From Haloglycomyces albus DSM 45210 (lineage in GTDB: Bacteria; Actinomycetota; Actinomycetes; Mycobacteriales; Micromonosporaceae), in NCBI RefSeq assembly GCF_000527155.1, contig NZ_AZUQ01000001.1, positions 1,795,615 to 1,859,614 on the forward strand: a stretch of 64,000 nucleotides of DNA. Direction: 5' to 3'. The position numbers and the translations under genes were made by a program. Of this stretch, positions 2,716 through 35,303 are shown piece by piece. Under the pieces are notes generated by a model. It was not told the DNA's origin. It did not search any database and was given only the letters and a program-made list of their open reading frames with translations. Each line of letters starts with the position of its first letter. The first letter of the stretch is position 1.

Positions 2716-2822
2716 CTCCGCGTGCTCCAGTGCCCAGGCGGATCGTCCGGGGATGGGGCGATCGTCTTGGTAAAGACTTTGATAAGAGCGCGGCAGTCGT
2801 ATTCCGCCTTCATACGGATGGC

Positions 2823-4562
2823 TCAGTGACGGAGCGGTTCGTGGTAAGGCGCGAAATCCTCAAGGAAGTTTCTCTGGAAGCTTTTCCGCATCGCAAATTG
2901 TCGCAGTTGCTTATTATCGAGATTCATGACGTCGAGATGCTCTTCAATCACGATTAGTACCTGTTCAAGCATTGATTGAAGGTCGTGATCATCCCAGATG
3001 GCTGAGAGGTTCCGGTCAAACTCCTTCCGTGATTTCTTTCCAATTTGGAACGAATGTTGGTTGCCGAACAGAAGTTCCTTAACGCCGGACATGAGGTACC
3101 ACCGCAGTGGTCTGTATATGCTCTGGATCTTTTCGCGTTCCAGGAAGTAATCAATGCGATAGGCGATGCTGGCGGCAGCGAAGTGCAGGTGCGGAGAGAC
3201 ATTGAGATCGAATACTCGACTCCCATAATTCTCGAACTGCGCTTGCGCGCGTACGGCTGCGCGGGGCTTGCGGAGGAACGTGGCAACAAAGGCACGAGTC
3301 AGCCGGTTGGGTGTAAAGACGCGTGCGGAAGGTAGATCACGATAACGGCCATCCTTGCGCTCGTAGAAGATGTTCCGATCATTACTCTGATGCGACCGGA
3401 AGACCGCCTCGATGGCTTCGTGAACATCGGCGCGGGCAGCCACGTATTCCGGTGCCACGGCAGTTTGACTGTTGAGTCCGGAGATAATCTCGTCGATGTG
3501 GTAGACATTGTCGACCTCGGCCAGCGTGACACGGAGATATACATCGGACAGTTGACATCGTTCATGGTGGAGCACATGGCTGGTTTGGGAACCGTCGACA
3601 ATCTGCGGATACGTCAGGTCGAAGGCACCGCTTCCCTCGTTGACCGAGGTGGCGATAATAGTGACGCCACTGTTCAACACGGGGAATCGTTGCTTTTTGT
3701 CGGGATCGCGAAGCGTATCACGTATCTCCTGGTTGACGTCATTCTTGTAACCATAGAAGATCCGGACGTTCTCATCAAAGATCGATTCCCGGAGGCTTCC
3801 ATCGTCGCTGGACAATATGTCGGATACGAAGGTCTGCGCCGGAACGTAGGCGGTATACACTTTAGCGATACCGGGCATGGGCGGTAGTTTGGTGAATTCC
3901 CTGCCGACGATAGGCAAAGAGGCCGTCGATACGCGCTTCAAACGTTGATAGCCCCGCGACAGCGCTGCTCGACTCACGGTTTCCACCGACGCATCATAGT
4001 TCAGCGCGCCAAGGTCGTCCTCGAACGCTTTAGCGTCTCGGCGAATCTCCTCAGAAACCCGTTCGCCGGTGGTCGCGTAAGCGATCGTAACTTTAATCTG
4101 CCGCGACAGCCTCCGAGGATTGTCCCCGAGAAAGCTGAGTATCTGCTTGAGTGTCTTTAGCTTGGGGTGCGTATTCGCCGGTAGTTCACGGTGTGAATTG
4201 AAGAGGTTAAGGCACCGGGTGCGAAAATGGTTGAGTTGCTGGTCGCTGAAGCTGGGGGAGGTCTTCGCCTGAACCGCCACGATATGGAGAGAGATCTCCT
4301 TCCGGGATTCCACGGTCTTCAGCGCTTCCTCAAAATCTGAGAAAAGTTCCCCACCAACCAGAATAGCCACGGCGTCGCTACCATGATCACTACCGTCCCC
4401 GATAACAAACGCACTCGGATCGAACTCATCCAAGTAGAAGCGGGGAAGAACACTGGCGAACGCGAACGCCTCGAACCGCGCCGGTTCACTCCACGTCGAC
4501 AGCGACTCGTAACTGTCACAGAACTCAGCAAAATCAGGGCGAATGGTGGGATTCATGGCCAT
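2823..4562 (-). CDS. AIPR-family (abortive infection phage resistance) protein
   Basis: 579 residues. The AIPR core is clear at residues 264-330: 'ENVRIFYGYKNDVN', 'FPVLNSGVTIIA' and 'YPQIVDGSQT', followed by 'GLNSQTAV' near 365. The N-terminal part has a PD-(D/E)xK-like arrangement, D-H-G-S-D around residues 58-63 and 'VAVQAK' at 95-100, consistent with a nuclease fold; that reading is inference. AIPR proteins were first linked to phage resistance in Lactococcus. The start is set by AAGGAG 9 nt upstream of the ATG, 11 nt after the stop of the ATPase gene, so it is probably translationally coupled. It is the last gene of a three-gene operon and most likely the effector. Confidence 0.85.
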   Translation of the reverse strand: MAMNPTIRPDFAEFCDSYESLSTWSEPARFEAFAFASVLPRFYLDEFDPSAFVIGDGSDHGSDAVAILVGGELFSDFEEALKTVESRKEISLHIVAVQAKTSPSFSDQQLNHFRTRCLNLFNSHRELPANTHPKLKTLKQILSFLGDNPRRLSRQIKVTIAYATTGERVSEEIRRDAKAFEDDLGALNYDASVETVSRAALSRGYQRLKRVSTASLPIVGREFTKLPPMPGIAKVYTAYVPAQTFVSDILSSDDGSLRESIFDENVRIFYGYKNDVNQEIRDTLRDPDKKQRFPVLNSGVTIIATSVNEGSGAFDLTYPQIVDGSQTSHVLHHERCQLSDVYLRVTLAEVDNVYHIDEIISGLNSQTAVAPEYVAARADVHEAIEAVFRSHQSNDRNIFYERKDGRYRDLPSARVFTPNRLTRAFVATFLRKPRAAVRAQAQFENYGSRVFDLNVSPHLHFAAASIAYRIDYFLEREKIQSIYRPLRWYLMSGVKELLFGNQHSFQIGKKSRKEFDRNLSAIWDDHDLQSMLEQVLIVIEEHLDVMNLDNKQLRQFAMRKSFQRNFLEDFAPYHEPLRH

Positions 4563-4573
4563 GGACGGTCTCC

Positions 4574-7500
4574 TTAAGACTTGCTAGCGAGATCCAGAAC
4601 ATCATCATCGGAAGGAGCGCTGGGGGAATGCAGCGTCAAACACATACGACTGTGAAACGCCGAATTCGGCGCGTTTTCTCCCACGAGATAAAATTCCCCA
4701 CGACCGAGACCCTGGAAATTGAACTTTCGGGACGATATGCCCGCTGCAATCTCCTCGGCCCGTTTCACCTGAGTAGGCTGCACCAACCTGCCATAGACAT
4801 GGGTCATGCAGTTACCGATAATCTGATTGTCGATACCGCTGGGCGACTGCGTCGCAACCAACAACCCCAGACCGAACTTACGAGCCTGCGACGCTATTGT
4901 CCGAGTCGACTGCAAACTCGCCGTTGACTTTTGCGAGGGGGCGATGGTTTGCGCCTCGTCCAACACCAATAGAGCCTGAGGAGTCCCACTCGACGACGGA
5001 TTCTTCTTCACCCAGGAAAACAAAGCATTGTTCAAGCGATTAATGAACGTCTGTCGCGGCTCATCCCCCGGCAAGCCAGACAGATTCACCACCGATACAC
5101 GACTGCGCGCACCGTTCTCCGGCGTCAGCAGTTCCGAGACATCAGTAGTCCCATAGCCGCCACCGAAAAACCTGTCATTGACGCTAAGCGCCGTAAGCGT
5201 CTCCGCTATGTTGTCGGCGATCTTGAGGGAATCATCGAAAGACTCGGTAATGTTGCCTTCCCTGACGAAGGCAATGAAGTCCTCCATGCTTCCGCTGCCA
5301 CGACGCGCGAAACCCTCCAGACACTCGCGGAGCACCGCTTCTCCCTTGGTTTTGGTTCGCGGCGTGAAGTTCAACCTGGGAAGAAGAGTCTCACACGCAT
5401 TATCGATCGCGGTGGCGAAGTCATCGGGATCGTCCATGGCTGCCGCGAAATCCGGGAAAACGGGGAACGACAGCGGACGCCCCTTCACCTTGTTCGGCGT
5501 CCACACCACGACGTCGACGTCACTGGCGAAACTCTTCGCATTGTCTTCATCAACCGGAGTCCAACTGCCGGGCGTATCCTCCCGGCCACATTTGAGCAGC
5601 GACAAGTCGTTGTTCGGGTCGACAACCACCACCGAAATCCCCGACAACGCCGCCTGTTCAATGATGCGTTTGAGAAGAACCGTTTTACCCGAACCGGTAC
5701 CCGCAACAATGGCAACGTGTTCGCGAAGCTTCTCGGGGCGTACAAAGACGGATTCCTTCGCAACGTCCCCCAGCTCTATAGGCCGTTGCGGCGCATCGTC
5801 CGAATCAGAACGCTGCATCGGGAGGTGGACAGAAGCCTGTTCGTCTTCGGGGGTACGCGTAGCTGCGGAATCGACGGCGGAGGACGGATCGTCGGCAGAA
5901 TCGGGAGATGGTGCCGGAGAGCGGAGGAAACTCTCTGGAAGATTACTCAATGCGATATCGATTGTGTTCCCGGATTGTTGTGGCGCATCGTCATTGGGCT
6001 CTGGTTGCGATACGCCCTTGGACGGGGGGAGATATTTGGCGAACGAGAAGTCATCACACGGTCGGCGAGTCTGCAGCCAGGCGGTCAAGCCCTCGTCGTT
6101 TTCCTCCAGGAGGCGATATAGGGCGTACATCTTCGCACGTTCAAGCCGGTTGACCGCTACGACGTCGCCGATATCGGAGAACTCCGCGATCCGTTGCAGC
6201 GCACGCGACTTCAAACCCCGGTGACATTCCTCCGAGATAATCAAAATCGAGCGCTCGCCGGGACGAACGCTAGGACGTTGGTGGTGTGTGCGGAATTTGT
6301 TCAACTTGGCGGTGACACCTTGACCGGCGGTTGTCGCGGCCACTCGAACGTTCCAGCGGGATCCTTCAGAGTCGATTTCCTGCAGGAAGGCCGGTGCGTC
6401 CGCATTGTTGCCGATCCCGTAGGGCGACAGATCAAGATCCATTCGGTTGTTTTGCCGTCGCAGGCATTCCAGAATGGCTCGCGTGACGTTAGGCAGAAGT
6501 TGCTTTTCGCTGTCCTTGTTGAAGTAGACCTCATCGGGGTCGCATTGCTCGGTCAACTCCTCAAAACGGGTATCGAATGAGTTCGTTCCGTGCGGCGCAA
6601 GCTCGGATAGATCCTCGTCCGATATGGTCAGCGATCCTGATTCCGCTATGTTCCGTACGGCTCTTTCAATGCGTCCCAGGAATTTACGGAGACTGAAGTG
6701 GGGCGCTGCGGTGAAGAACGATTCCGGAAAGGGGTAGGTGTTGTAGGGAACGTCCACATCTCGATAGGCAGGCGCAAGTAGGGCTGCGGTGAGTTCTTTG
6801 GCGGCGTTGCTGTCGGGAATCCTGCCGAGTTGAATATGATCGGTGAAGCGTCCATCGGCGGCTTCTGAAGCGTGGGATTTCAACAGCTCCCAGGTGGAGA
6901 AGATACAGGACATCATGATCATGGACCGTTTCGACTTGTCGCGAAGGTCCATGAGACATTCGGTGATTTCGACAAGATGCTCTTTATCCGCCGGTTCAGC
7001 CGAACCGGATCCGATGCTGACGTTCCTGACCAGTTCGTCCGTCTGGTCGATCGCAATGATCGTTCCACCCGCATAGGAACATAGATTCAGAATGTCTGAA
7101 ACGATTTTTTCTGCGGTTGGCATGGAGGAAGTCGGTGGCCCCCATTGCCCTTCGGGGTCCAGCGGTCCTTCTCCACGCAAATATGATGCTCCGGCTTGAT
7201 TCATATAGGGGTCGCGGGAAGTATTGTGTAGGAGCGCTCGTATCGTTTCATTTCTCATACGGTAGAAATCGATATCCGAATCCGCTACAGCACGCAACAT
7301 CGCTTCAATGCCGTCGCGGTCAACGGAACTGCCTAGACGGTGACGATTGTCGTCATCAAGCTCGAATGCGTCGGCGATCTGTGTTATCAGGTGCTGGACT
7401 TGGCTTCCACCCCTGCTATGTGGTCGGCTCAGAGCGTCGTAGAACCCCGTGGCGACTTCGCTCCACGGATTCCCATTACGACTGAATTGCAATGGCACGA

Positions 7501-8773: not shown

Positions 8774-8924
8774 ATAGCCCCCGCCCACGCGGGGATAGCT
8801 CTATTTCTGGTGGCGACACGATCGATATCGACCGGTAGCCCCCCGCCCACGCGGGGATAGCTCTGATCGTCCCACCTGTATAGGAGCAGAGACGTAGTAG
8901 CCCCCGCCCACGCGGGGATAGCTC
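8774..8924 (+). CRISPR. CRISPR array 1 (type I-E repeats; 3 repeats, 2 spacers)
   Basis: Repeats lie at 8774-8801, 8835-8863 and 8897-8924, with spacers of 33 nt. The repeat is the 28-nt I-E type: TAGCCCCCGCC, a short loop, then GCGGGGATAGCTC. All three copies carry CCCAC in the loop, unlike the CCTAC or CCAAC of the other arrays. Repeat 1 starts with A instead of G. Repeat 2 has a sixth C and is 29 nt long. The array lies upstream of cas3 in the same orientation. Confidence 0.93.
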
Positions 8925-9157
8925 TAGTTGGTATGCCTGCACGCATTCTGCGAGGGTCGACATCTGGATGTGAATACAAATCTAAGGATGTCGGCTTTGA
9001 TGCTTGAGCACGGCAGATCCGGGACAGACCTATTTCCAACAACCCGCTGCTCTGGACGTCAGGCTTCCGACTGGGTTGTAGCAGTTCATTCTCGGAATTC
9101 CCGTTTCCTGCCAGGCGTGAGTTATGCATTGTCACACGTGGTCGATACAGTGCTGGT

Positions 9158-18176: not shown

Positions 18177-18463
18177 CGGTCATCGTACTCATCGCAGCGC
18201 CTCGAGGATTGCGCGGGCACGTGACAAGATGGCTTCTGGAAGTTGCAGCCGGAATTTTCGTCGGCACTGTTAGTAAGCGGGTGCGCGATTATATATGGGA
18301 AATTACCCGTGCGCGGATTGGTGATGGCCAAGCGGTCATGATTGAGCCGGCTGCGACTGAACAGGATTGTGCTTTTCGAACTGCGGGTCGCGAACGTTGG
18401 AAACCAACTGACTTCGACGGCTTGACACTGTTGGCCCGACCGAGAGATCCGCACGAGCCTTAG
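18173..18463 (+). CDS. cas2: Cas2e adaptation protein
   Basis: 96 residues. GTG start in a GTGA overlap with the cas1 stop. The type I-E Cas2 pattern is seen: 'PRGLRGHVTRWLLEVAAGIF', 'VGTVSKRVRDYIWE', 'GRERWKPTDFDGLTLL'. It bridges two Cas1 dimers during spacer capture. A second, truncated copy of its 3' half lies at 29.5 kb. Confidence 0.95.
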   Translation: MTVIVLIAAPRGLRGHVTRWLLEVAAGIFVGTVSKRVRDYIWEITRARIGDGQAVMIEPAATEQDCAFRTAGRERWKPTDFDGLTLLARPRDPHEP

Positions 18464-18559
18464 GGGCCAAGTGAAAAAGAGGCGGACGAAAACCGGTCAA
18501 AGTCGTGATGGAGGTGCAGGTCGTCGACTGTAGCCCCCGCCTACGCGGGGATAGCTCCC
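18309..18559 (+). repeat. Direct repeat, left copy (cas2 3' half + leader + first CRISPR repeat)
   Basis: 251 bp matching 29519-29769 with about 10 substitutions by eye (near 96 % identity) and no gaps seen. It covers the last half of cas2, the whole 66-bp leader and the first repeat of array 2. Weaker similarity continues some 35 bp further upstream. Confidence 0.93.
18464..18529 (+). promoter_or_regulatory. Leader of CRISPR array 2
   Basis: 66 bp between the cas2 stop and repeat 1. It is identical, apart from 2-3 bases, to the sequence before array 3. It ends with TGGAGGTGCAGGTC (18509-18522) seven bases before the repeat, a motif shared with all three arrays. It is short for a leader, so the array promoter may lie inside cas2. 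Confidence 0.7.
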
Positions 18560-18801
18560 GGCACGGCAAATCGGACCCAAGCGCGCAGACGTAGCCCCCG
18601 CCTACGCGGGGATAGCTCTCGGCACGACGGCGGGAATGTGGGAACTGTAGAGTAGCCCCCGCCTACGCGGGGATAGCTCCCACTACCCAACAGTGCGATG
18701 ACGACAATCCCCGTAGCCCCCGCCAACGCGGGGATAGCTCTACTCACGCCACCGGTTCGTACCGGGTAGACCGGTAGCCCCCGCCAACGCGGGGATAGCT
18801 C
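18530..18801 (+). CRISPR. CRISPR array 2 (type I-E; 5 repeats, 4 spacers)
   Basis: 28-nt repeats start at 18530, 18591, 18652, 18713 and 18774 with exact 61-nt periodicity and 33-nt spacers. The first three repeats have CCTAC in the loop and the last two CCAAC. The final repeat is intact rather than degenerate, unusual for a leader-distal end. It is followed within 25 bp by two strong hairpins. Confidence 0.97.
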
Positions 18802-23453: not shown

Positions 23454-24143
23454 ATGGGTTTGGAAGAGGCTAATAGTCACAACCAATCCGACCAGCAAGC
23501 GGTCCATGAACTCACCACACAGCTACAAGGCACCCTCTCTACTATCGAAGACGTCCGGACCACCCTGGAATCACTGGGAGTCGGAGGCGACGCACACCTG
23601 ACCGGTGAGGCTGCCGATCGGTACAACGACCTACTATCCATAGCCGCAGAGCTGAGCCAGCAGCTTGAAGAAGCCGGAAGTCAACTCCAAGAGGCAATGG
23701 AACCACCGGGTAGCGGCACCAATGCCAGTACTGGAGGTGGAAACAGTGGCGATGTTCCCTTCACCGTGACCGTACAGAGCGAAGGCGACCCTCAGATATT
23801 CAACGAACCTGGACCATTTCAGAAAGAAAGCCACAACGCCGACGCTGACTCCGGCAAAAGTAAGATGCGTCGAACGATGCGAAACATGGTACGTAACGTT
23901 GGGGACCTAAAGAAGGCCGTTAACGATCACGGTACTTCTATGGAATCGACTGTCAAACACAATCCAACAACAGGCGAACGAGGCACCCTTGTGGATACGA
24001 CACCGGCACCCCAGAATCCGTCAACCGTTCAACCGCCGTTGAATGCATTCAACCCCGTTGACGCGACAGTGCACCTTGTTATTCTTGGAATCGGAGTTGT
24101 AGAAGCAGCCTCACGAGCGAGGAAGAAGGATTCTGACTCATGA
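23454..24143 (+). CDS. Coiled-coil protein with basic linker and hydrophobic tail
   Basis: 229 residues. N-terminal 80 residues repeat the helical hairpin of the preceding gene, followed by a Gly/Ser/Asn-rich linker, a basic segment 'KSKMRRTMRNMVRNVGDLKK', 'VKHNPTTGERGTLVDTTPAP' and a C-terminal hydrophobic helix 'ATVHLVILGIGVVEAA'. The design suggests a surface- or membrane-associated protein whose N domain pairs with the 83-residue partner. It overlaps the next gene by ATGA. Function unknown. Confidence 0.7.
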   Translation: MGLEEANSHNQSDQQAVHELTTQLQGTLSTIEDVRTTLESLGVGGDAHLTGEAADRYNDLLSIAAELSQQLEEAGSQLQEAMEPPGSGTNASTGGGNSGDVPFTVTVQSEGDPQIFNEPGPFQKESHNADADSGKSKMRRTMRNMVRNVGDLKKAVNDHGTSMESTVKHNPTTGERGTLVDTTPAPQNPSTVQPPLNAFNPVDATVHLVILGIGVVEAASRARKKDSDS

Positions 24144-24589
24144 CAGATCAACTGCACTATAGGAAGACAGTCGAGGCTGTTGCCACTAAAGACGTTAATA
24201 AGTTCAAACAGCTTCTAGAGTCATTGCCGGAAGACCAGGCACAGAAGTATATGACGTACCTGGCTGCGCTTTTTGCTGCCTTCCTTGAGGAGTACTTCAA
24301 AGATGGTATTAGCCGTGATGCCATCGCCGGTCTTGTCAACAAGCTGAGGTATGAATATCGGGAAGCCACCGAACCGAAATTCAACGCCCTCACCGCTGAA
24401 GGAGTCATACGAGGATCAGCGGGAGAACCACACCTTATGGACGATATTCCCACCAATGACGTCGTCCACGTCCAGATGATGGTCATCGCTGCCCTGGCAA
24501 CAGAAGGAACCACGACCAGACCTGATCTATACAGATTTCTGAATGAAGCCGATGCGATAATGGCTGAATGGGATACGCCAGAGGAATAA
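24140..24589 (+). CDS. Hypothetical helical protein, family member 1
   Basis: 149 residues, mostly helical and acidic. Motifs shared with the next gene: 'L..LF..FLE...KDGISRDAI', 'RYEYREA..PKFNALTAEGVIRG', then an aspartate turn and 'QMMVIAALA'. It begins MTDQLHYRKTV, similar to the remnant at 25113. Tandem small paralogs behind a coiled-coil gene are reminiscent of immunity-gene duplication in polymorphic toxin loci, but no toxin domain is seen. Confidence 0.7.
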   Translation: MTDQLHYRKTVEAVATKDVNKFKQLLESLPEDQAQKYMTYLAALFAAFLEEYFKDGISRDAIAGLVNKLRYEYREATEPKFNALTAEGVIRGSAGEPHLMDDIPTNDVVHVQMMVIAALATEGTTTRPDLYRFLNEADAIMAEWDTPEE

Positions 24590-24663: not shown

Positions 24664-25110
24664 GTGGAAAATAACGACTACTTTATGAAGACCATGAAGG
24701 CTCACACTCTCGGGCGTACCGAATCAGTTGAATTGATCCAAGGGCTCCCGAACGATGGCGATTGGGGACTATTTACTCTGTCGACCTTTTCGGTGCTGCT
24801 TGAAAAAGCCCTGGACGACGACACCAGCCAATCCGCAGTTAAGCAATTTGTTGAACGAGTTCGATATGCATATCGAAGGGCTGACCCACCCTTCAATGGC
24901 TTGATCCTCGAAGGACTCATTCGCGGTCTTCTGGGCGAAGAAGCTTTCCTTGATGAGATCACGCCCGAACAACAATACGAAGCTCAGATGTTGACCATCC
25001 GCTATGTCGCAGAGACCGATGAGCATGTGAAGGCGCATATTGACACGTACTTGACCGACGCCGCTACGCTGGCTGATCAATGGAGCGAGGAAACCAGTGA
25101 AGGGTGCTGA
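24664..25110 (+). CDS. Hypothetical helical protein, family member 2
   Basis: 148 residues from a GTG with AAGGA upstream. Paralog of the gene before it: 'FSVLLEKALDDDTSQSAVKQ', 'RVRYAYRRADPPFNGLILEG', 'LIRGLLGEEAFLDEITPEQQ', 'QMLTIRYVA'. It carries the segment MKAHTLGRTESVELIQ near its N terminus, echoed by the broken copy at 25211. No known domain. Confidence 0.7.
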   Translation: MENNDYFMKTMKAHTLGRTESVELIQGLPNDGDWGLFTLSTFSVLLEKALDDDTSQSAVKQFVERVRYAYRRADPPFNGLILEGLIRGLLGEEAFLDEITPEQQYEAQMLTIRYVAETDEHVKAHIDTYLTDAATLADQWSEETSEGC

Positions 25111-25389: not shown

Positions 25390-27471
25390 CTAATGCGTCG
25401 CGGTGATGCCGTTAGGGTTTGAGGCGGTTTTCAACGGCATCACCAAGGACATGGGTTGGGACGTAGATTGTGGTAAGCGATTGGTGGACATAGGGCATCG
25501 CTCCGGATCGATTCCAAACTCGCGTTCTACCCAATGTTTGCCTTCGGCGGCGATACCTTCGAGAAGGTGTAGCGCATGGTTAAATCCGGAGACGTCGAGG
25601 TTGATGGTGGGAGCTTCGTCGGGAGATTCCGTTGTATCGCTACTGACTTCCGGATCTCTGACGCTGATATCGATCTCCGGACCATTCGACAGTATCAACT
25701 TGAGAGTGAATGCGGCGCTGGAGCTTTCGGTTACCTTGGCGGAGGCGACGGCATCGAAGCGGTAGTTGTTTCTCGTCTGCCCGGAGAATTCACCGGTTCG
25801 AAAGTTCAGGGTTGAGCTGATCTCGCGCACACCGTCTCTGGTGATTAGGAAGAGTCGGAGGTCGTAGCGACTGTACCGCCACTGCCCACCGGGAACCTTA
25901 CGTCTCTGGCGACTGCGAGCCGGTGCTTGAATGACAGCATAAGCGAGGACGTCATGCCACGAAAGGTGGTAGTGTTCCAGGGCATTGTCCAAGAGCGCGG
26001 TCTTATCGCAGTACAGCCAGGTTTCCATTTCACCTTCGGTGGGACGGGTCGCCACGAGTTTGGCTTTCCAACGCTTGAACTCCACAACCCTGGCATGGAA
26101 TTCTTCTTCCATATCTGCGCTCTCGTCGCGAACTCGCCGAAGCTCAGTGTTTTGGTGCAGCCACAACCGCACCGCCATCGGAACGGCCACTATAGCCGCT
26201 ATGAGGGCGATCGATCCGATAAACGGAGATTCCGGAAGTGCTGTTGTCACGATGGGAACGACGGACGCCAGTACCATTGCGCCACACAGTATTGTGCGTG
26301 CCACCATCGCAACTGGAAGACGGTAACGGACTCGGTAGCGAGGTAGACGGCCTTGCCGCCATTGCTTTCTGACATCGCGTGCGAGGAAGGCAATCAGCCA
26401 ATTCACCCGTTCTGCGAGAACGCGTTGTTCCCGATACATCAAGGTGATCTCGGATCGCAAGCTGTTGCGAATCCCTGAGGTCGCCATCAACCAGTTTTCG
26501 ACCTCTACGCCGTTGGGCCGATATTTGCTGAAATAGAATGTGAAATTGCGGTGGACGGCTGAGGCGAATCCACTGCCTCGCGGTCCTGAATCGTCGGCGA
26601 TTGGGCGGTAACGTTCAGCCTCGGTTTTGAGGCGGTGGGCCCGGAAGTGCCAGTCTGCGAGACTACGACATCCAACTGCGGAGAAAACGACGGCTGCCAG
26701 GTAGGCCGCGATCGCCGTTATGTTTCCCGCGATCGCTACCGACCATCCCAGGTATCCCAGGGACAGAACGGACAACGTGGCAGTGGTGAAGAGGCGGAAT
26801 CGATCGGCTGAGTGGAACGACGGCGGACGGGGTACCTGCTGGCGCGGTGGAATGGGATCGGGATGAAAATACGCCCAGATCCGCGCAAGTCTGTCATTGC
26901 CGAACCGTTCCACTCTGGAACGATCTCTGGTTTCCTTCCAGAGCTTGTCTCTAATACCGCCTGACAAGATCAGTCCCAAATCACGATCGATCTTGGCGCG
27001 GATATCAGGAGGCAGTATCAGGATCTTCTTCTCGGTCTCATCAGCAATGCCTTCCGCGTTAGCCAAGTGCGACAGGAGATCTCCGACCGCTTCCAATGCC
27101 TGTTGGTACACATCCTGCGGATCGGCAGCAGCGTCGTTGCATAGGATATCGAGGCGATCTCGTTCGCCATTCGATAGGTCCCGGTACGACCGTTTGCTCA
27201 GTATCGCCAATATCCAATGGAACCGAACTTCCGGATTGTTCAAGCCGTCTGCTACTGCCCCTGCGATCGCTTCTTCGGCTTTGAAAGGAACTCCATGGTT
27301 CAAGTATCTGACCCCGACGTTGTATTTCACCGATGGAGGTGAATCTTCATAGTAGACGTATATATCGGAGTCATGGATCTCGTCCGCTTGGATTCCGACA
27401 TGGGAACCAGCGGCGGCGAAATTGGAGGTGCCGGCGGAATACGGCGGTTCGTTGGAGAATTCGTCACTCAT
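25390..27471 (-). CDS. Four-TM membrane protein with N-terminal VGxQA motif, partner of nucleosidase
   Basis: 693 residues. N-terminal motif 'HVGIQADEIHDSDIYVYY' (24-41) is followed by a helical region (60-200). Two membrane helices lie near 228-268 ('LFTTATLSVLSLGYLGWSVA', 'NITAIAAYLAAVVFSAVG') and two near 388-440. A cytoplasmic linker follows, then a C-terminal beta-rich domain ('WRYSRYDLRLFLITRDGVRE', 'NNYRFDAVASAKVTESSSAA'). The C domain resembles a bacterial PH-like or lipid-binding fold only in a general way. Its start overlaps the nucleosidase stop by 4 nt. The shared motif with that enzyme suggests a two-part conflict system in which this is the membrane component. Confidence 0.75.
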   Translation of the reverse strand: MSDEFSNEPPYSAGTSNFAAAGSHVGIQADEIHDSDIYVYYEDSPPSVKYNVGVRYLNHGVPFKAEEAIAGAVADGLNNPEVRFHWILAILSKRSYRDLSNGERDRLDILCNDAAADPQDVYQQALEAVGDLLSHLANAEGIADETEKKILILPPDIRAKIDRDLGLILSGGIRDKLWKETRDRSRVERFGNDRLARIWAYFHPDPIPPRQQVPRPPSFHSADRFRLFTTATLSVLSLGYLGWSVAIAGNITAIAAYLAAVVFSAVGCRSLADWHFRAHRLKTEAERYRPIADDSGPRGSGFASAVHRNFTFYFSKYRPNGVEVENWLMATSGIRNSLRSEITLMYREQRVLAERVNWLIAFLARDVRKQWRQGRLPRYRVRYRLPVAMVARTILCGAMVLASVVPIVTTALPESPFIGSIALIAAIVAVPMAVRLWLHQNTELRRVRDESADMEEEFHARVVEFKRWKAKLVATRPTEGEMETWLYCDKTALLDNALEHYHLSWHDVLAYAVIQAPARSRQRRKVPGGQWRYSRYDLRLFLITRDGVREISSTLNFRTGEFSGQTRNNYRFDAVASAKVTESSSAAFTLKLILSNGPEIDISVRDPEVSSDTTESPDEAPTINLDVSGFNHALHLLEGIAAEGKHWVEREFGIDPERCPMSTNRLPQSTSQPMSLVMPLKTASNPNGITATH

Positions 27472-28625
27472 GACAGACCGTTCACCGCCGTGATCACTAG
27501 GGCGATATTGGCGGCGACGTTTGTCGTCTCGCCTGCGAGACCCCGGAGCTTCTTGAGCGCCAATACCGATTTCTTCTTATCGCCAGCACTTGGATTATCC
27601 AAACCGGATGCGGCAGTATCGATCTCGTTCATTGCTTCGCGGTAGACATCGTCATCGATCTCGCCGTTGGCGTAGTTGTTGTCGAGGTGCGTACGCAGCT
27701 TGTCGACGGCGGTCCGGGCATCGGTTTCAGTGGAACCGATCGACGGTGAATTGACCTGGACGGTACTTCCCGTTATGTTGGCGGCCTGAACTCCGACCGT
27801 ACCGTGAGCCACGTTGGAAACGTGTGGGCTGTGGATGGTCGCAGGGGACGAATCGGATTTACGTGATCTCATGGGTTGGTCCTTTACTTCGTGCATGTAT
27901 TCCTGGGCGAGTTGAACGGCGAACATCGCGGCGTGCTCGGCGGCCCGAGGTTGCCACTCGACGTCTCCGTCGCTGCCTTTCGTTCCGTCGGCTTTATCGC
28001 TGATTCCGCGTACGACGGCGATGTCGACGCTGTTGAGATGAGCGGCCTGAGCGACGCCCGCAGACTCCATCTCGATGGCGGTCGCGTCGTTGTAGTGGCG
28101 GCGAATCCATTGCGCTTCTCGGGAGACACGGGAGTTCTGTACAACCTCCCCAGCCGCGATCGGGGCCGATACCGCTGTAGGCGTTGGGGTCTCTGGTGGC
28201 AGGCGTTCGGTCCAGATGCCGGAGCGGATGATCTCGTTGGCGATCTGATCGATCAAATGCGGTGCTTCCCAAACACGCGGGCGGGCCTTGAGACCGTCGT
28301 CTTCGCTGGTGCCACCGTGATAGGCGTATACGCGGGACGCCACCACAACGTCGCCGAGTCCGGGGGAATCCCACAAGGCACCGGCGACACCGACGAAAAA
28401 CACGGCCCGAGGAGCGAATTCGGTAACGGCCCGCTCGGCGAGAATTGCAGCCGGTTGATTTCCGGCACCGGTGCGCACGAGGGCGATCCGACAGTCGGAA
28501 TCGGCCAGGTATCCAATGTCGAATCCCGTTCCGGCGTCGTGACGATACCTTTCGGGTTCCTTTATGTATTGCCGGACCGCCTCGAATTCGCAGTTCAAGG
28601 CTGTAAGGACCACAATGTCCACCAT
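27468..28625 (-). CDS. Purine nucleosidase/phosphorylase-like effector with C-terminal VGxQA domain
   Basis: 385 residues. Residues 1-245 are a PNP_UDP_1 (MTA/SAH nucleosidase-like) domain: 'VVLTALNCEFEAVR' (catalytic Glu region), 'VFFVGVAGALWDSPGLGDVV', 'AIEMESAGVA' (185-192, ribose-binding Glu) and 'VVRGISDKADG' (Asp210, acid). The C-terminal 140 residues hold 'TVGVQAANITGSTVQVN' (276-292) and a helical tail ending in a hydrophobic segment. Nucleosidase domains of this kind occur as effectors in NTP-dependent bacterial conflict systems. The ribosome site GGAGAG lies at the end of the upstream Nudix gene, so the three form one operon. Confidence 0.88.
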   Translation of the reverse strand: MVDIVVLTALNCEFEAVRQYIKEPERYRHDAGTGFDIGYLADSDCRIALVRTGAGNQPAAILAERAVTEFAPRAVFFVGVAGALWDSPGLGDVVVASRVYAYHGGTSEDDGLKARPRVWEAPHLIDQIANEIIRSGIWTERLPPETPTPTAVSAPIAAGEVVQNSRVSREAQWIRRHYNDATAIEMESAGVAQAAHLNSVDIAVVRGISDKADGTKGSDGDVEWQPRAAEHAAMFAVQLAQEYMHEVKDQPMRSRKSDSSPATIHSPHVSNVAHGTVGVQAANITGSTVQVNSPSIGSTETDARTAVDKLRTHLDNNYANGEIDDDVYREAMNEIDTAASGLDNPSAGDKKKSVLALKKLRGLAGETTNVAANIALVITAVNGLS

Positions 28626-28627
28626 CG

Positions 28628-29359
28628 TTACTCTCCTAGGTCGTCGGTGGTGTCGGGACGGGACAGAGGCGGGTGCAGGACCGTTGCCGGTCCGGCTCGA
28701 AACACCCGCGCCGGGCGACCCCGTTGCGGGCGGAGGCTCGTCCCGGTGGCTTCGATGAATCCGGGAGTGCGCTGGACTTTGCGGTAGAAGTTGCGCATGT
28801 CGAGGCGAACGCCCCAGACGGCTTCGTAGACGCGTTGCAGATCGGCGATAGTGAACGTGTCATCGCAGAAAGCCGTGGCGAGCGGCGTGTGTTCCAGTTT
28901 TATGCGGGCCTGTTCGACGGCGTCGGTGAGGATCTGGCGATGGTCGAAGGCCAGTTCGACTTTGTGGGAGAGAACGTCGTCGACGGGTATCCAGGCGGCT
29001 GCGGCGGCGTCGGTTCCAGCGGACGGTTCGGGTAGGCCCGGTGCGATGGTCAGGTAGGCGACCGATAGGACTCGACCTCTGGGGTCGCGGTCGGGTTTGC
29101 CGTAAGCGCCGAGTTGTTCGATGTGCAGTTTTGAACCGTCGAGGTCGGCTTCTTCTTGCAGTTCGCGTAGGGCGGCGTCGTAAACATCCTCTTTGGAGTT
29201 GTTGAGAAATCCGCCGGGGAGGGCGTGTTGTCCCTGAAAGGGTTCGATTCCGCGTTCCACGAGCAGTACGTGGAAGGTTGAGGCGCGCAGAGTGAGAATG
29301 ACGAGGTCGACGGCTACGAGTACGGCGGGTGGTGTCCATGGTTGTTCGTTGTCGGACAA
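28628..29359 (-). CDS. NrtR-like Nudix/winged-helix regulator
   Basis: 243 residues. Nudix domain with box 'GGFLNNSKEDVYDAALRELQ' then 'EEADL': the Gly-Glu spacing is one residue long and the final Gly is Asp, as often seen in non-catalytic NrtR sensors. The C terminus matches the NrtR winged helix: 'FTIADLQRVYEAVWGVRLDM', 'RNFYRKVQ', 'RGRPARVFR'. NrtR proteins bind ADP-ribose and control NAD genes. The start is TTG with AAGGAG 5-10 nt upstream. It heads the nucleosidase operon and has a fitting palindrome just ahead. Confidence 0.87.
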   Translation of the reverse strand: MSDNEQPWTPPAVLVAVDLVILTLRASTFHVLLVERGIEPFQGQHALPGGFLNNSKEDVYDAALRELQEEADLDGSKLHIEQLGAYGKPDRDPRGRVLSVAYLTIAPGLPEPSAGTDAAAAAWIPVDDVLSHKVELAFDHRQILTDAVEQARIKLEHTPLATAFCDDTFTIADLQRVYEAVWGVRLDMRNFYRKVQRTPGFIEATGTSLRPQRGRPARVFRAGPATVLHPPLSRPDTTDDLGE

Positions 29360-29371
29360 GAAAATCTCCTT

Positions 29372-29392
29372 TTACTGTCAATATGACAATAA
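29372..29392. promoter_or_regulatory. 21-bp palindrome, likely operator of the NrtR-like regulator
   Basis: TTAcTGTCA-ATA-TGACAaTAA: 8 of 9 positions in each arm are complementary. It lies 13 bp before the TTG start codon, around the expected promoter. Length and symmetry fit NrtR operators, suggesting autoregulation of the nudix-nucleosidase-membrane operon. Confidence 0.7.
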
Positions 29393-29493
29393 GTGTAGGG
29401 TGAGGATTAAGCCGAATGCAACCCCCTCAATGCCCTTGGATCGATTCCGTCCAGTCGTCGGTGGTTGTTGAGCGGTGTGGGTAATAGGCGAAT

Positions 29494-29718
29494 GTGCGAC
29501 AATATGTGGGAACTATCCGTGCGCGGATTGGTGATGGCCAAGCGGTCATGATCGAGTCGGCTGCGACTGAACAGGATTGCGCTTTTCGAACTGCGGGTCG
29601 CGAACGTTGGAAACCAACTGACTTTGACGGCTTGATGCTGTTGGCCCGACCGAGAGATCCTCACGAGCCTTGGAGGCCAAGTGAAAAAGAGGCGGACGAA
29701 AACCGGCCAAAGTCGTGA
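29494..29718 (+). pseudogene. cas2: Truncated cas2 copy that has lost its stop codon
   Basis: The frame is homologous to cas2 from about residue 42 onward ('RARIGDGQAVMIESAATEQD', 'RERWKPTDFDGLMLLARPRD'). The cas2 stop TAG has become TGG, so reading continues through the leader for 19 more residues. The N-terminal half is missing. Part of a 251-bp duplication. Confidence 0.9.
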
Positions 29719-29769
29719 TGGAGGTGCAGGTCGTCGACTGTAGCCCCCGCCTACGCGGGGATAGCTCCC
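29519..29769 (+). repeat. Direct repeat, right copy (cas2 3' half + leader + first CRISPR repeat)
   Basis: Matches 18309-18559 with about 10 substitutions, several of them synonymous in cas2. Together the two copies bracket about 11 kb that has no other link to CRISPR. Confidence 0.93.
29670..29739 (+). promoter_or_regulatory. Leader of CRISPR array 3
   Basis: Nearly identical to the array 2 leader, including TGGAGGTGCAGGTC at 29719-29732. Array 3 could therefore still be transcribed and acquire spacers. Confidence 0.7.
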
Positions 29770-30134
29770 GTTGTCCGGATCGAGAGTGGAGAGCAGGGCA
29801 GTAGCCCCCGCCTACGCGGGGATAGCTCGCCGCCGAAATCGCGCGAAAGCGACAGGCGGCCGTAGCCCCCGCCAACGCGGGGATAGCTCTGGCGCGGTGG
29901 TGTCCGTGATGATTGGTTGTCGTGTAGCCCCCGCCAACGCGGGGATAGCTCTTCGCCGAGATGGTTAGCCAACTCCTACCTGGAGTAGCCCCCGCCTACG
30001 CGGGGATAGCTCCTCCCTCGTCAGACGGCCTGGACAGTGTGGACCGTAGCCCTCGCCAACGCGGGGATAGCTCCGAGACGATGTGGGTACAGTGGTGCGT
30101 CCACGCGTAGCCCCCGCCAACGCGGGGTTAGGTC
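29740..30134 (+). CRISPR. CRISPR array 3 (type I-E; 7 repeats, 6 spacers)
   Basis: Repeats start at 29740, 29801, 29862, 29924, 29985, 30046 and 30107. Spacers are 33 nt, except the third at 34 nt. Loop variants run CCTAC, CCTAC, CCAAC, CCAAC, CCTAC, CCAAC, CCAAC. Repeat 6 has one C to T change. The last repeat has a degenerate end (GGGGTTAGGTC instead of GGGGATAGCTC), which marks the leader-distal end. No spacer is shared with arrays 1 or 2 by eye. Confidence 0.97.
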
Positions 30135-30245
30135 GTCGATCGAGCGATGCCTCCGGCTGTCGTTCCTTCTGGCCTACTCACCGGATTCCAACCCTGACGA
30201 CCCGGTAGGAAACGTGTCAAGAACCAAGGCGTCGCGCTCCCTACC

Positions 30246-30473
30246 TTGCGTATGGCATCGGAGTCGTCGCAGGCACTGATCCCCATCACGGCGGGAATGA
30301 TGTCATGGAATGCTTTGGCCGCTTTTGGAATCGGTGCGGGGATATCAACATTCGGGGCGGGAATGGAACTCGCCGTGTTCGTATTCGTGGTCTGCGGTGC
30401 GGCGACGATCCTCGTGCTGGTCAATGCGCGTCGTCCGGCCCTGAGGTCGCTACAGGCCAGGGTCGACGGTTGA
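30246..30473 (+). pseudogene. Possible C-terminal remnant of a membrane transporter
   Basis: 75 residues with two hydrophobic segments ('AAFGIGAGISTFGAGMELAV', 'FVFVVCGAATILVLVNA') and a basic tail. The frame is open from 30198 and the TTG start has no ribosome site. It resembles the last two helices of an MFS-type transporter, so it is more likely a fragment cut at the edge of the CRISPR island than an intact gene. Confidence 0.35.
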
Positions 30474-30504
30474 GGGATTGGGACTTAATGATGCGGCGGA
30501 TAGC

Positions 30505-30538
30505 GGTGTGGGGAGCTCTACGAACGCGTCCCCACACC
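30505..30538 (-). terminator. Hairpin after the peroxiredoxin gene
   Basis: Perfect 10-bp stem GGTGTGGGGA (30505-30514) and TCCCCACACC (30529-30538), 7 bp beyond the bcp stop. No T run, so it may be a weak or factor-assisted terminator. Confidence 0.6.
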
Positions 30539-30545
30539 GAAAAGA

Positions 30546-31019
30546 CTATTCCGCCAGGTCCAACTTCTTCAGGACGCGACCGACGTGGCCGGTGGCTCGC
30601 ACGTTGTAGAGCGCCTGCTCGATCCGACCTTCCTCGTCGATCACGAAGGTGGACCGGATGACTCCCTTGACGAGCTTGCCGTAGTTCTTCTTCTCTCCGA
30701 AAGCTCCGTACGACTCCAGAACGGTCTTGTCCGGGTCGGACAGCAGCGGGAAGTTGAGCCCGTCGCGTTCGACAAACTGTGTTAGCTTCTCCGGCGTATC
30801 GGGCGATATCCCGAGGACAACGTATCCAGCGTCCTTGAGGGTCTGGAAGCTGTCTCGGAAGTCGCAGGCTTCTTTCGTACACCCCGGCGTCATGGCCCGG
30901 GGATACGCGAACAGTACTACCTTGTGGCCGCGCAGACTCGACAAGGAGAACTCCTCGCCGGTGTCGGAGGGGAGGGTGAAGTCTGGTGCGGTATCTCCTG
31001 GTTCAAGTTTCACAGTCAC
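30546..31019 (-). CDS. bcp: Thioredoxin-dependent peroxiredoxin, Bcp/PrxQ family
   Basis: Reduces hydroperoxides using a peroxidatic Cys. 'LEPGDTAPDFTLPSDTGEEF', 'VLFAYPRAMTPGCTKEACDF' (peroxidatic Cys and the second Cys five residues on), 'VLGISPDTPEKLTQFVERDG' and 'FPLLSDPDKTVLESYGAFGE'. The start is set at the GTG of VTVKLEPGD because family members begin there; a TTG ten codons upstream is the alternative. 157 residues. Confidence 0.95.
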   Translation of the reverse strand: MTVKLEPGDTAPDFTLPSDTGEEFSLSSLRGHKVVLFAYPRAMTPGCTKEACDFRDSFQTLKDAGYVVLGISPDTPEKLTQFVERDGLNFPLLSDPDKTVLESYGAFGEKKNYGKLVKGVIRSTFVIDEEGRIEQALYNVRATGHVGRVLKKLDLAE

Positions 31020-34550: not shown

Positions 34551-35303
34551 GTGGTGGCGGCGGTTGACGTGAGGGATGTCGGATATCGCTATCCGGACGG
34601 GCATGAGGTGTTGCGGGACGTGTCGCTCTCGGTGCGGGAGGGTGAGCGGGTCGCGGTGTTGGGGCCCAATGGGGCCGGGAAGACCACTCTGATGTTGCTG
34701 TTGGCCGGTCTTCTGCAGCCGACGACCGGGACGGCGTCGGTGGCGGGCACGGTTCTTGATCCCAAAACGGTGCGTGAGGTTCGCCGGAGGATCGGTATTG
34801 TGTTTCAGATTCCCGACGATCAGTTGTTCATGCCGACCGTGGCGGCGGATGTCGCCTTTGGTCTCGCTAATTACGGCGTTACGGGCGAGGATCTGGACAG
34901 GCGTGTTGCGGAGGCCTTGGCGGACGTGGGGTTGAGTGACGTGGCCGAGCGGGCTCCGCATCACCTGTCGGTGGGGCAGCAGCGTCGTGCCGCGTTGGCG
35001 GGGATTCTGGCGATGCGTCCTGATTGTGTGGTGTTGGACGAGCCGTCGGCGAATCTGGATCCGGCCGCCCGGCGGCAGTTGGTCGATGTGGTGCGGCGGG
35101 AAGTGTCGACCTTGATTCTGGTGACGCATGATTTGCCGTACGCCCTGCAGATGTGTTCGCGGGCGGTGATTTTGGACGATGGTCGGGTGGCCGCTGAAGG
35201 GCCGGTCGCCGAAATCCTGGCCGATGGGGCGCTTTTGGAGAAGCATTCCTTGGAGTTGCCCTTTGGGTTTTCCCTGCGGGCGGCTCTGGCGGAATTGGCG
35301 TGA
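34551..35303 (+). CDS. nikO: ECF transporter ATPase (CbiO/NikO)
   Basis: 250 residues. Walker A 'LGPNGAGKTTLM', Q loop 'FQIPDDQLFMPTVAADVAFG' (typical of ECF ATPases), signature 'LSVGQQRRAALAGILAM' (Val for Gly), Walker B 'CVVLDEPSANLD' and His switch 'LVTHDLPYA'. GTG start, AAGGAG upstream. Single ATPase gene, so it would function as a homodimer. Confidence 0.94.
   Translation: MVAAVDVRDVGYRYPDGHEVLRDVSLSVREGERVAVLGPNGAGKTTLMLLLAGLLQPTTGTASVAGTVLDPKTVREVRRRIGIVFQIPDDQLFMPTVAADVAFGLANYGVTGEDLDRRVAEALADVGLSDVAERAPHHLSVGQQRRAALAGILAMRPDCVVLDEPSANLDPAARRQLVDVVRREVSTLILVTHDLPYALQMCSRAVILDDGRVAAEGPVAEILADGALLEKHSLELPFGFSLRAALAELA

Follow-up and report, generated by a model that had tools for sequence, protein, structure and literature searches.

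A 21-bp palindrome at an NrtR-like gene of Haloglycomyces albus as the very probable switch of a nucleosidase and membrane protein cassette

What does a 21-bp palindrome beside an NrtR-like gene control in Haloglycomyces albus DSM 45210, and does it link a defence operon to NAD metabolism, as a sequence-only reading of this locus had proposed? We addressed this question in a stretch of 64,000 nucleotides (hereafter, the window; contig NZ_AZUQ01000001.1, positions 1,795,615 to 1,859,614), whose relevant features are collected in Table 1. The palindrome is very probably a switch for the cassette's own repressor, a nucleosidase and a membrane protein together, and the cassette looks like a mobile bacterial immune system, not like a part of ordinary NAD metabolism. 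To the explanation as a whole—an operator, a dedicated NrtR autorepressor, its release by a ligand and a conflict system composed of a nucleosidase and a membrane protein—we would give a probability of roughly 0.7.

Table 1. Operator, genes and protein parts of the cassette, in window coordinates.
Feature	Position	Strand	Basis
Operator, 21 bp, TTACTGTCAATATGACAATAA	29372..29392	.	Sequence; conserved at 23/23 cassette loci; unique in genome
AGGAG ribosome-binding sequence of nrtR	29366..29370	-	Read from sequence
nrtR-like regulator gene, 243 aa, Nudix + NrtR winged helix, TTG start	28628..29359	-	PF00293, PF21906; structure relatives
Nucleosidase gene, 385 aa	27468..28625	-	PF01048, model, Foldseek, PADLOC
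VGxQA-type tag motif in nucleosidase	27741..27815	-	Alignments
Membrane protein gene, 693 aa, no family; start overlaps nucleosidase stop	25390..27471	-	AlphaFold2 model, mean pLDDT 80.1
VGxQA-type tag motif, membrane protein N-terminus	27352..27423	-	Alignments
Tentative TPR-like helical domain, residues 46-202	26866..27336	-	Model; best Z 9.3 (a level helical repeats can reach by chance), rmsd 3.2, 127 aligned
First transmembrane hairpin, residues 221-287	26611..26811	-	Model + hydropathy
Second transmembrane hairpin running into long helix, residues 387-475	26047..26313	-	Model + hydropathy
Tentative PH-like beta domain + C-terminal helices, residues 508-652	25516..25950	-	Model; Z 7.7, rmsd 3.8, 105 aligned (Foldseek E not significant)

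The palindrome, TTACTGTCAATATGACAATAA, is laid out as TTACTGTCA-ATA-TGACAATAA. Eight of its nine arm pairs are complementary, the fourth being a C/A mismatch, and the earlier description of a near-perfect palindrome is exact in both sequence and coordinates. The near end of the site stands at -13 of the TTG start of the nrtR-like gene, just upstream of the AGGAG ribosome-binding sequence. The proposed overlap with the promoter is presumed from that position; no sigma-70 consensus promoter was recognised. A riboswitch or other RNA element was rejected as a reading, since positions 28000-31000 gave no Rfam match at gathering score. Symmetry by itself is weak evidence, because an equally good 21-mer palindrome arose in 42 of 2000 dinucleotide shuffles of the 240 bp upstream of nrtR. 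The palindrome occurs once in the window, and the genome-wide search for further copies that the sequence-only reading had called for returned it as the sole site with zero or one mismatch to TTWNTGTCANNNTGACANWAA in the 3.54-Mb genome. The next-best site there, with two mismatches, lies within a coding frame whose translation resembles, by eye, a BioA-type aminotransferase. At up to three mismatches there are 17 sites versus 12 for a reversed control pattern, which is therefore about background.

Unlike symmetry, conservation indicates that the palindrome is a real operator. At 23 cassette loci, we searched the 240-bp stretch in front of nrtR for TTNNTGTCNNNNNGACANNAA, which has 12 fixed positions, the nrtR starts of the related loci being extrapolated from the alignment with the window protein. 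Besides the window, these loci came from Saccharomonospora piscinae, Amycolatopsis dendrobii and the best 20 further genomes among the matches listed for 394 genomes of the class; two loci without the cassette (L004 and L005) stand outside the operator counts and the alignment. All 23 carry TTnnTGTCnnnnnGACAnnAA with zero to two mismatches, starting at -29 to -36 of nrtR, and the palindromic operator at the nrtR promoter that marks the NrtR family is thus predicted by the scan at every one of them. All 12 fixed positions are matched in 15 loci, 11 in seven and 10 in one. At least 11 positions are reached by 22/23 loci versus 0.04% of 4600 shuffles, and at least 10 by 0.59% of the shuffles. A plasmid-borne copy on pLBRS, which was not used in deriving the motif, also has an 11-of-12 site at -39 of the annotated nrtR start. 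When whole genomes were searched, the exact 12-position motif was found in 14 of 21 cassette genomes (our own and 13 others), one site each and always the cassette's own; in the remaining seven, the cassette site carries one or two deviating bases and so escapes the exact pattern. Each cassette locus has one operator site; at several outgroup loci there are two, spaced about 34 bp apart.

The genes downstream of this site very probably form an operon, with nrtR and the nucleosidase gene 2 bp apart and the nucleosidase and membrane protein genes overlapping by 4 bp. The order nrtR, MTAN-like nucleosidase, membrane protein was found in the window and in 22/22 of the closest NrtR loci fetched. 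In the stretches fetched, no match to the membrane protein was found at L004, L005 or 20 more distant NrtR loci, which were chosen by hand, not at random, among the matches listed in the class genomes and serve here as an outgroup. A profile search returned the membrane protein in 24 of the 394 class genomes, namely our own, the 20 with the best NrtR matches, and three more (G017, G122 and G207) in which it again lies beside an NrtR gene and a nucleosidase, as divergent variants of the cassette. It was found in two of 296 genomes of the phylum, both of the same class, and, among 72,556 plasmid records, on a single one, the Streptomyces sp. M54 plasmid pLBRS, where a NUDIX protein, an MTA/SAH nucleosidase and a hypothetical protein follow each other in this order. 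None of 50,697 phage records contained it.

A recurring neighbour gene beyond the three was rejected: by the coordinates shown, all families present in five or more loci lie inside the cassette. Among families seen in at least three loci, the flanks hold one in 4/23 loci, represented in the window by frame 34551-35303 (an ABC ATPase by eye), and one in 3/23. In the window neighbourhood, a selection of proteins was scanned for domains, the cassette genes and eight further frames among them; PADLOC recognised none of the eight. Window frames 24140-24589 and 24664-25110 are similar in length and look by eye, have no clear family match and are possibly paralogues. Some loci show variations of the cassette itself. 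In the divergent cassette of G017, nrtR is separated from the nucleosidase gene by an extra Nudix domain (L107 3936-4355; PF00293 E 1.2e-19). At L055 (6757-7125), a weak extra copy of the nucleosidase C-terminus (30% identity, E 2e-4) lies between the nucleosidase and the membrane protein and is perhaps a separate adaptor. At L056 (2049-4103), nrtR and the nucleosidase share one open frame without a stop; the two genes are either fused or only look so on account of the N-containing stretch in this row.

The regulator is indeed NrtR-like, as the sequence-only reading had it. Its N-terminal part matches PF00293 (NUDIX; E 1.4e-16, 61.1 bits, cut-off 21.1) and is followed by a match to PF21906 (NrtR_WHD; E 6.6e-14, 52.2 bits, cut-off 27), that is, a Nudix domain fused to the NrtR winged helix, which is the architecture of the family. 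Against the NCBIfam equivalog NF050029 it scores 106.9 bits, under the cut-off of 400. Its relatives of solved structure include 3gz5/3gz6, which we take to be NrtR of Shewanella oneidensis, and the arabinose regulator AraR (5bs6). Both a protein search and PF21906 returned a single NrtR in the genome of H. albus; the PF21906 profile search covered 12 genomes.

The Nudix box of this protein (PGGFLNNSKEDVYDAALRELQEEADL) had been called altered, and it is so in part: one residue is inserted between PGG and the first Glu and a Gly is replaced by Asp, while the RELxEE part is intact. We aligned 40 NrtRs, comprising 23 from cassettes and 17 from the 20 outgroup loci (L061, which has a stop codon, L060 and L076 were left out). 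The extra residue is present in 23/23 cassette proteins and absent from 17/17 outgroup rows, including L068, whose 'G-x6-E' pattern label results from counting from the earlier of two glycines. Sixteen of the 23 cassette NrtRs have lost the final Gly of the box, and none of the 23 conforms to the active hydrolase box GX5EX7REUXEEXGU. Since RELxEE is kept in 22/23, these proteins may nevertheless be active hydrolases and may act as enzymes, not as sensors alone. As for the ligand, BtAraR holds arabinose through Arg34, Arg86 and His131 (PMC4666351). These positions map to R36, R91 and H140 of the window NrtR and are invariant in 40/40 aligned NrtRs, from which we infer a working site for a pentose-bearing ligand, ADP-ribose being one candidate. 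The earlier statement that NrtR proteins respond to ADP-ribose applies to some relatives, while others respond to NAD or L-arabinose (PMC4666351); with ligands varying in this way, belonging to the family is not sufficient ground for assuming ADP-ribose.

The cassette NrtRs form one clade (support 100/98), and their half-site, TGTCA, differs from the CGTC, GGTC and AGTC half-sites of other actinomycete NrtR paralogues. Six genomes (G038, G071, G123, G206, G338 and G347) have a second NrtR paralogue with a different predicted half-site. Across the 40 aligned NrtRs, the residue after NF in the NF-x-RK helix pairs with the base before GTC: Tyr, Ser or Ala with T (24/24, two cassette sites having C in one half), His with C (6/6 rows having a site; two His rows have none) and Arg with A or G (8/8), in rows that are related, not independent, and with sites picked by a scan that ignored this base. 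Against such a code, the divergent cassettes L108 and L109 combine a recognition-helix His with a half-site T. In all three divergent variants, the sites found lie after nrtR and before the nucleosidase gene instead of preceding nrtR. If it holds, the predicted code (Tyr-T, His-C, Arg-purine) would separate coexisting NrtR paralogues. Given the distinct half-site, the exact motif occurring at most once per genome searched and then at the cassette, and the lack of a tie to NAD genes described below, the cassette NrtR would be a local, insulated autoregulator of a probable conflict system.

The surroundings of the outgroup NrtRs are varied, as judged from a selection of neighbour genes scanned for domains. 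At least three of the 20 loci (L064, L077, L079) have an ADP-ribosylglycohydrolase gene beside the paralogue, and at L076 the NrtR adjoins a nicotinate phosphoribosyltransferase gene. Eight (L060, L061, L062, L065, L070, L073, L074 and L075) share a recurring neighbour gene family, which is SPFH/Band_7 in the one representative scanned, with a CGTC operator in the six examined. At L068, L071 and L072, NrtR is accompanied by a divergent operon that encodes a 575-594-aa protein with hydrophobic segments, a nucleosidase (matching PADLOC PDC-M60C at L072) and a protein of 217-242 aa that has a hydrophobic stretch at its N-terminus. L066 and L069 have a nucleosidase 38-40% identical to that of the window near NrtR. 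L063 is the one outgroup locus with a T-type (TGTCA) operator; just downstream of its NrtR, a 1388-aa frame (2791-6957) gives a weak N-terminal nucleosidase match (E 2e-5).

The second gene of the cassette encodes a nucleosidase of the PNP/MTAN type. It consists of an MTAN-type PNP_UDP_1 domain (Pfam residues 4-238; PF01048 E 1.6e-28, 100.1 bits), a low-confidence linker with a tag motif (252-300) and a C-terminal helical part (303-382). Its model (mean pLDDT 77.6) has the MTAN fold, with Foldseek E 2e-19 and TMt of 0.82-0.84 in the ten best rows. The nucleosidases at the 22 other loci are 42-55% identical to that of the window, and E13, E187 and D210 (window numbering) are invariant in 23/23. 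We take these residues to be Glu12, Glu174 and Asp197 of E. coli MTAN and to play the same roles; mutants of Glu12 and Asp197 are named among the structural matches of the model. Both the fold and the catalytic Glu, Glu and Asp of the family are therefore present. PADLOC matches the protein to its PN-superfamily effector (E 7.2e-20) and to PDC-M60C (E 8.2e-13). The proposal of a defence operon is in this respect supported by the nucleosidase and not by the membrane protein, for which the Pfam, NCBIfam and PADLOC models gave no family match.

The membrane proteins of the 22 loci are 29-41% identical to that of the window. The TPR, PH and SLATT assignments, which come from the model and profile comparisons, are tentative: SLATT models matched one of 23 membrane proteins at E 0.038, and the window member gave no match. 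Relatives of solved structure found by sequence were rejected (the best, at E 0.013, is apparently a designed protein), as were viral structural relatives, of which there were none at E 0.001 or less. In most rows, a tag like N-T-A-x5-VGxQAG-x-V-HG appears both in the nucleosidase linker and at the N-terminus of the membrane protein. Because both proteins carry it, we infer that they assemble.

Taken together, these features induce us to propose the following scenario. An NrtR dimer would bind TTnnTGTCA-n3-TGACAnnAA, close to the ribosome-binding site of nrtR on its upstream side. Acting as a repressor rather than an activator, it would keep expression of the co-transcribed nrtR, nucleosidase and membrane protein genes low. 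A small ligand that contains a pentose or ribosyl moiety might then bind the Nudix domain and release the repressor. The nucleosidase would in turn split a nucleotide or nucleoside at its N-glycosidic bond, and the membrane protein, presumably tied to it through the shared tag, would act at the membrane. In this way, the two proteins may constitute an accessory conflict system of the abortive type. The indirect signs that bear on an antiphage role are the patchy presence of the cassette, its plasmid-borne copy and the PADLOC effector match. Points that count against the scenario are the displaced sites of the three divergent variants, the seven genomes that lack the exact motif, the want of a recognisable sigma-70 promoter, the eight neighbouring frames passed over by PADLOC and the absence of the membrane protein from the phage records.

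The alternative that fares best is the one from which the question arose, namely, that other defences cleave NAD and the ADP-ribose so formed frees NrtR from its operator, which would switch the cassette on. It is in keeping with reports that ADP-ribose releases NrtR relatives (PMC6800001 and PMC4666351) and with the prediction, in PMC9503650, that Nudix-type repressors are ADP-ribose sensors in ARG conflict systems; the ADP-ribosylglycohydrolase genes beside paralogue NrtRs point the same way. Against it, the ligands vary within the family, and TIR_2 and SIR2_2 profiles gave no hits in the own genome, leaving the proposed trigger, NAD cleavage by other defences, with no source among these two families. 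Nor was the idea of an operator linking the cassette to NAD metabolism supported at the DNA level. No NrtR-like palindrome (at least nine of the ten fixed positions of TTNNNGTCNNNNNGACNNNAA) was found in the 12 kb around nadA, the one NAD gene whose surroundings were read, the others being covered by genome-wide pattern searches. Control of NAD biosynthesis or salvage genes, a property of NrtR regulators of NAD metabolism, was likewise not found, the single exact site being that of the cassette in all 14 genomes that have one. A restriction of the site to NAD genes, the outcome that the sequence-only reading had named as adverse to it, was not seen either. We therefore rejected a shared NAD regulon, with one NrtR in the genome, no site in the nadA region and the exact motif only at the cassette. 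Overall, a link to NAD is not supported at the DNA level and possible at the level of the ligand, and we regard the NAD-responsive circuit as conceivable, if unlikely.

A somewhat less probable alternative is product feedback, in which ribosyl phosphate freed by the nucleosidase would itself be the ligand that releases NrtR, making the response self-amplifying. That this NrtR clade is always accompanied by a nucleosidase (in the window, 22/22 fetched loci and the three divergent variants) agrees with such a circuit; the conserved pentose-holding positions and the nucleosidases near other NrtR paralogues (L066, L068, L069, L071 and L072, and weakly L063) point in this direction as well. L067, of the same paralogue group, speaks against it, having no nucleosidase match in the stretch fetched, and the shared ligand class is itself conjectural. 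It is tempting to go one step further and to imagine a mobile actinomycete immune cassette whose Nudix-type repressor senses the ribosyl product of its own nucleosidase and which amplifies itself until the membrane partner stops the cell, though we find this version more doubtful still. If it were true, nucleotide cleavage by the cassette, by an invader or by another defence enzyme would release the repressor. On this view, the alterations of the Nudix box and half-site would identify a regulator that has passed from NAD homeostasis to the sensing of damage and no longer interferes with its paralogues.

It is improbable that the cassette is a housekeeping one, that is, a methionine-cycle MTA/SAH nucleosidase with a transcriptional regulator and no role in conflict. 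The best NCBIfam model for the nucleosidase is indeed MTA/SAH nucleosidase (E 5.9e-24), though at 84.9 bits it stays below the curated cut-off of 169. Patchy presence in 24/394 genomes, a copy on a plasmid, a fixed membrane protein partner with a shared tag and the PADLOC effector match all argue for a conflict system instead.

We can dismiss as highly improbable the notion that the inverted repeat arose by chance or belongs to some other factor, such as one acting on the CRISPR leader-like stretch that begins near 29482, since shuffles do reach equal palindromy, as noted above, but the motif recurs in the same place at 23/23 loci and on the plasmid, which rules out chance, and no CRISPR-like array was found at the 22 other loci, the three variants or the plasmid. 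The same search, which used looser matching, detected the three arrays of the window as a positive control, and a CRISPR association was accordingly rejected as a part of the cassette. In the window, the nearest array (29482-30150), which has seven repeats and a leader-like stretch, starts about 90 bp past the operator and is oriented away from nrtR; its repeat is identical to that beside cas1e, and the leader and array are 80% identical to 18271-18801. A third short array, at about 8774-8932, has three copies of the same repeat.

With the preferred reading of a locally acting autorepressor in place, what had been a one-off palindrome becomes a testable regulon, composed of a three-gene cassette with at most one exact operator per genome searched. 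The general idea is already in print, in the form of the Nudix repressors predicted for ARG systems (PMC9503650). We found no account of the nucleosidase-membrane cassette or its operator in the open-access literature searched. Should the cassette prove to be an immune system, it would offer a handle on how nucleotide or NAD damage switches on bacterial immune operons. The label 'NrtR' on an actinomycete gene, moreover, is not to be equated with 'NAD regulator'.

Finally, we would like to compare the cassette with known systems. Detocs, an ATP nucleosidase effector, reportedly cleaves ATP and dATP on phage infection. With immune effectors of the PNP superfamily (CBASS-type PN and Detocs), the window nucleosidase shares the PNP/MTAN fold and the PADLOC match given above; for Detocs-type ATP nucleosidases, the likeness is the general PN-superfamily match only. 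Unlike these systems, the cassette has no cyclase, kinase or receiver partner. Closer in composition are the predicted pairs of a PNPase and a 2TM SLATT protein in GAP1-type conflict systems (PMC7159879), in which a base-releasing nucleotide enzyme also stands next to a membrane protein. The cassette membrane protein is larger than 2TM SLATT, with a putative helical repeat, two hairpins and a possible PH-like part and no convincing SLATT match, and the cassette lacks a GTPase gene. ARG conflict systems, described in PMC9503650 as predicted counter-invader operons under a Nudix or WYL repressor, with actinobacteria among the hosts, resemble the cassette in placing a predicted conflict operon under a Nudix-HTH repressor; they use an ADP-ribosylglycohydrolase, while the cassette has a nucleosidase and a membrane partner with two transmembrane hairpins. 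With the NrtR family proper (S. oneidensis NrtR, MsNrtR and BtAraR), the cassette NrtR has in common the Nudix domain and NrtR winged helix, an autoregulatory palindrome of about 21-23 bp at nrtR and the conserved pentose-holding Arg, Arg and His. It differs in its half-site, TGTCA, against GTTTTCGA-N7-TCGAAAAC for MsNrtR of M. smegmatis (PMC6800001), in the one-residue insertion in the Nudix box of 23/23 proteins and in that no NAD or sugar target was found for it. The operator is ordinary in kind for an NrtR, and what it controls is new.
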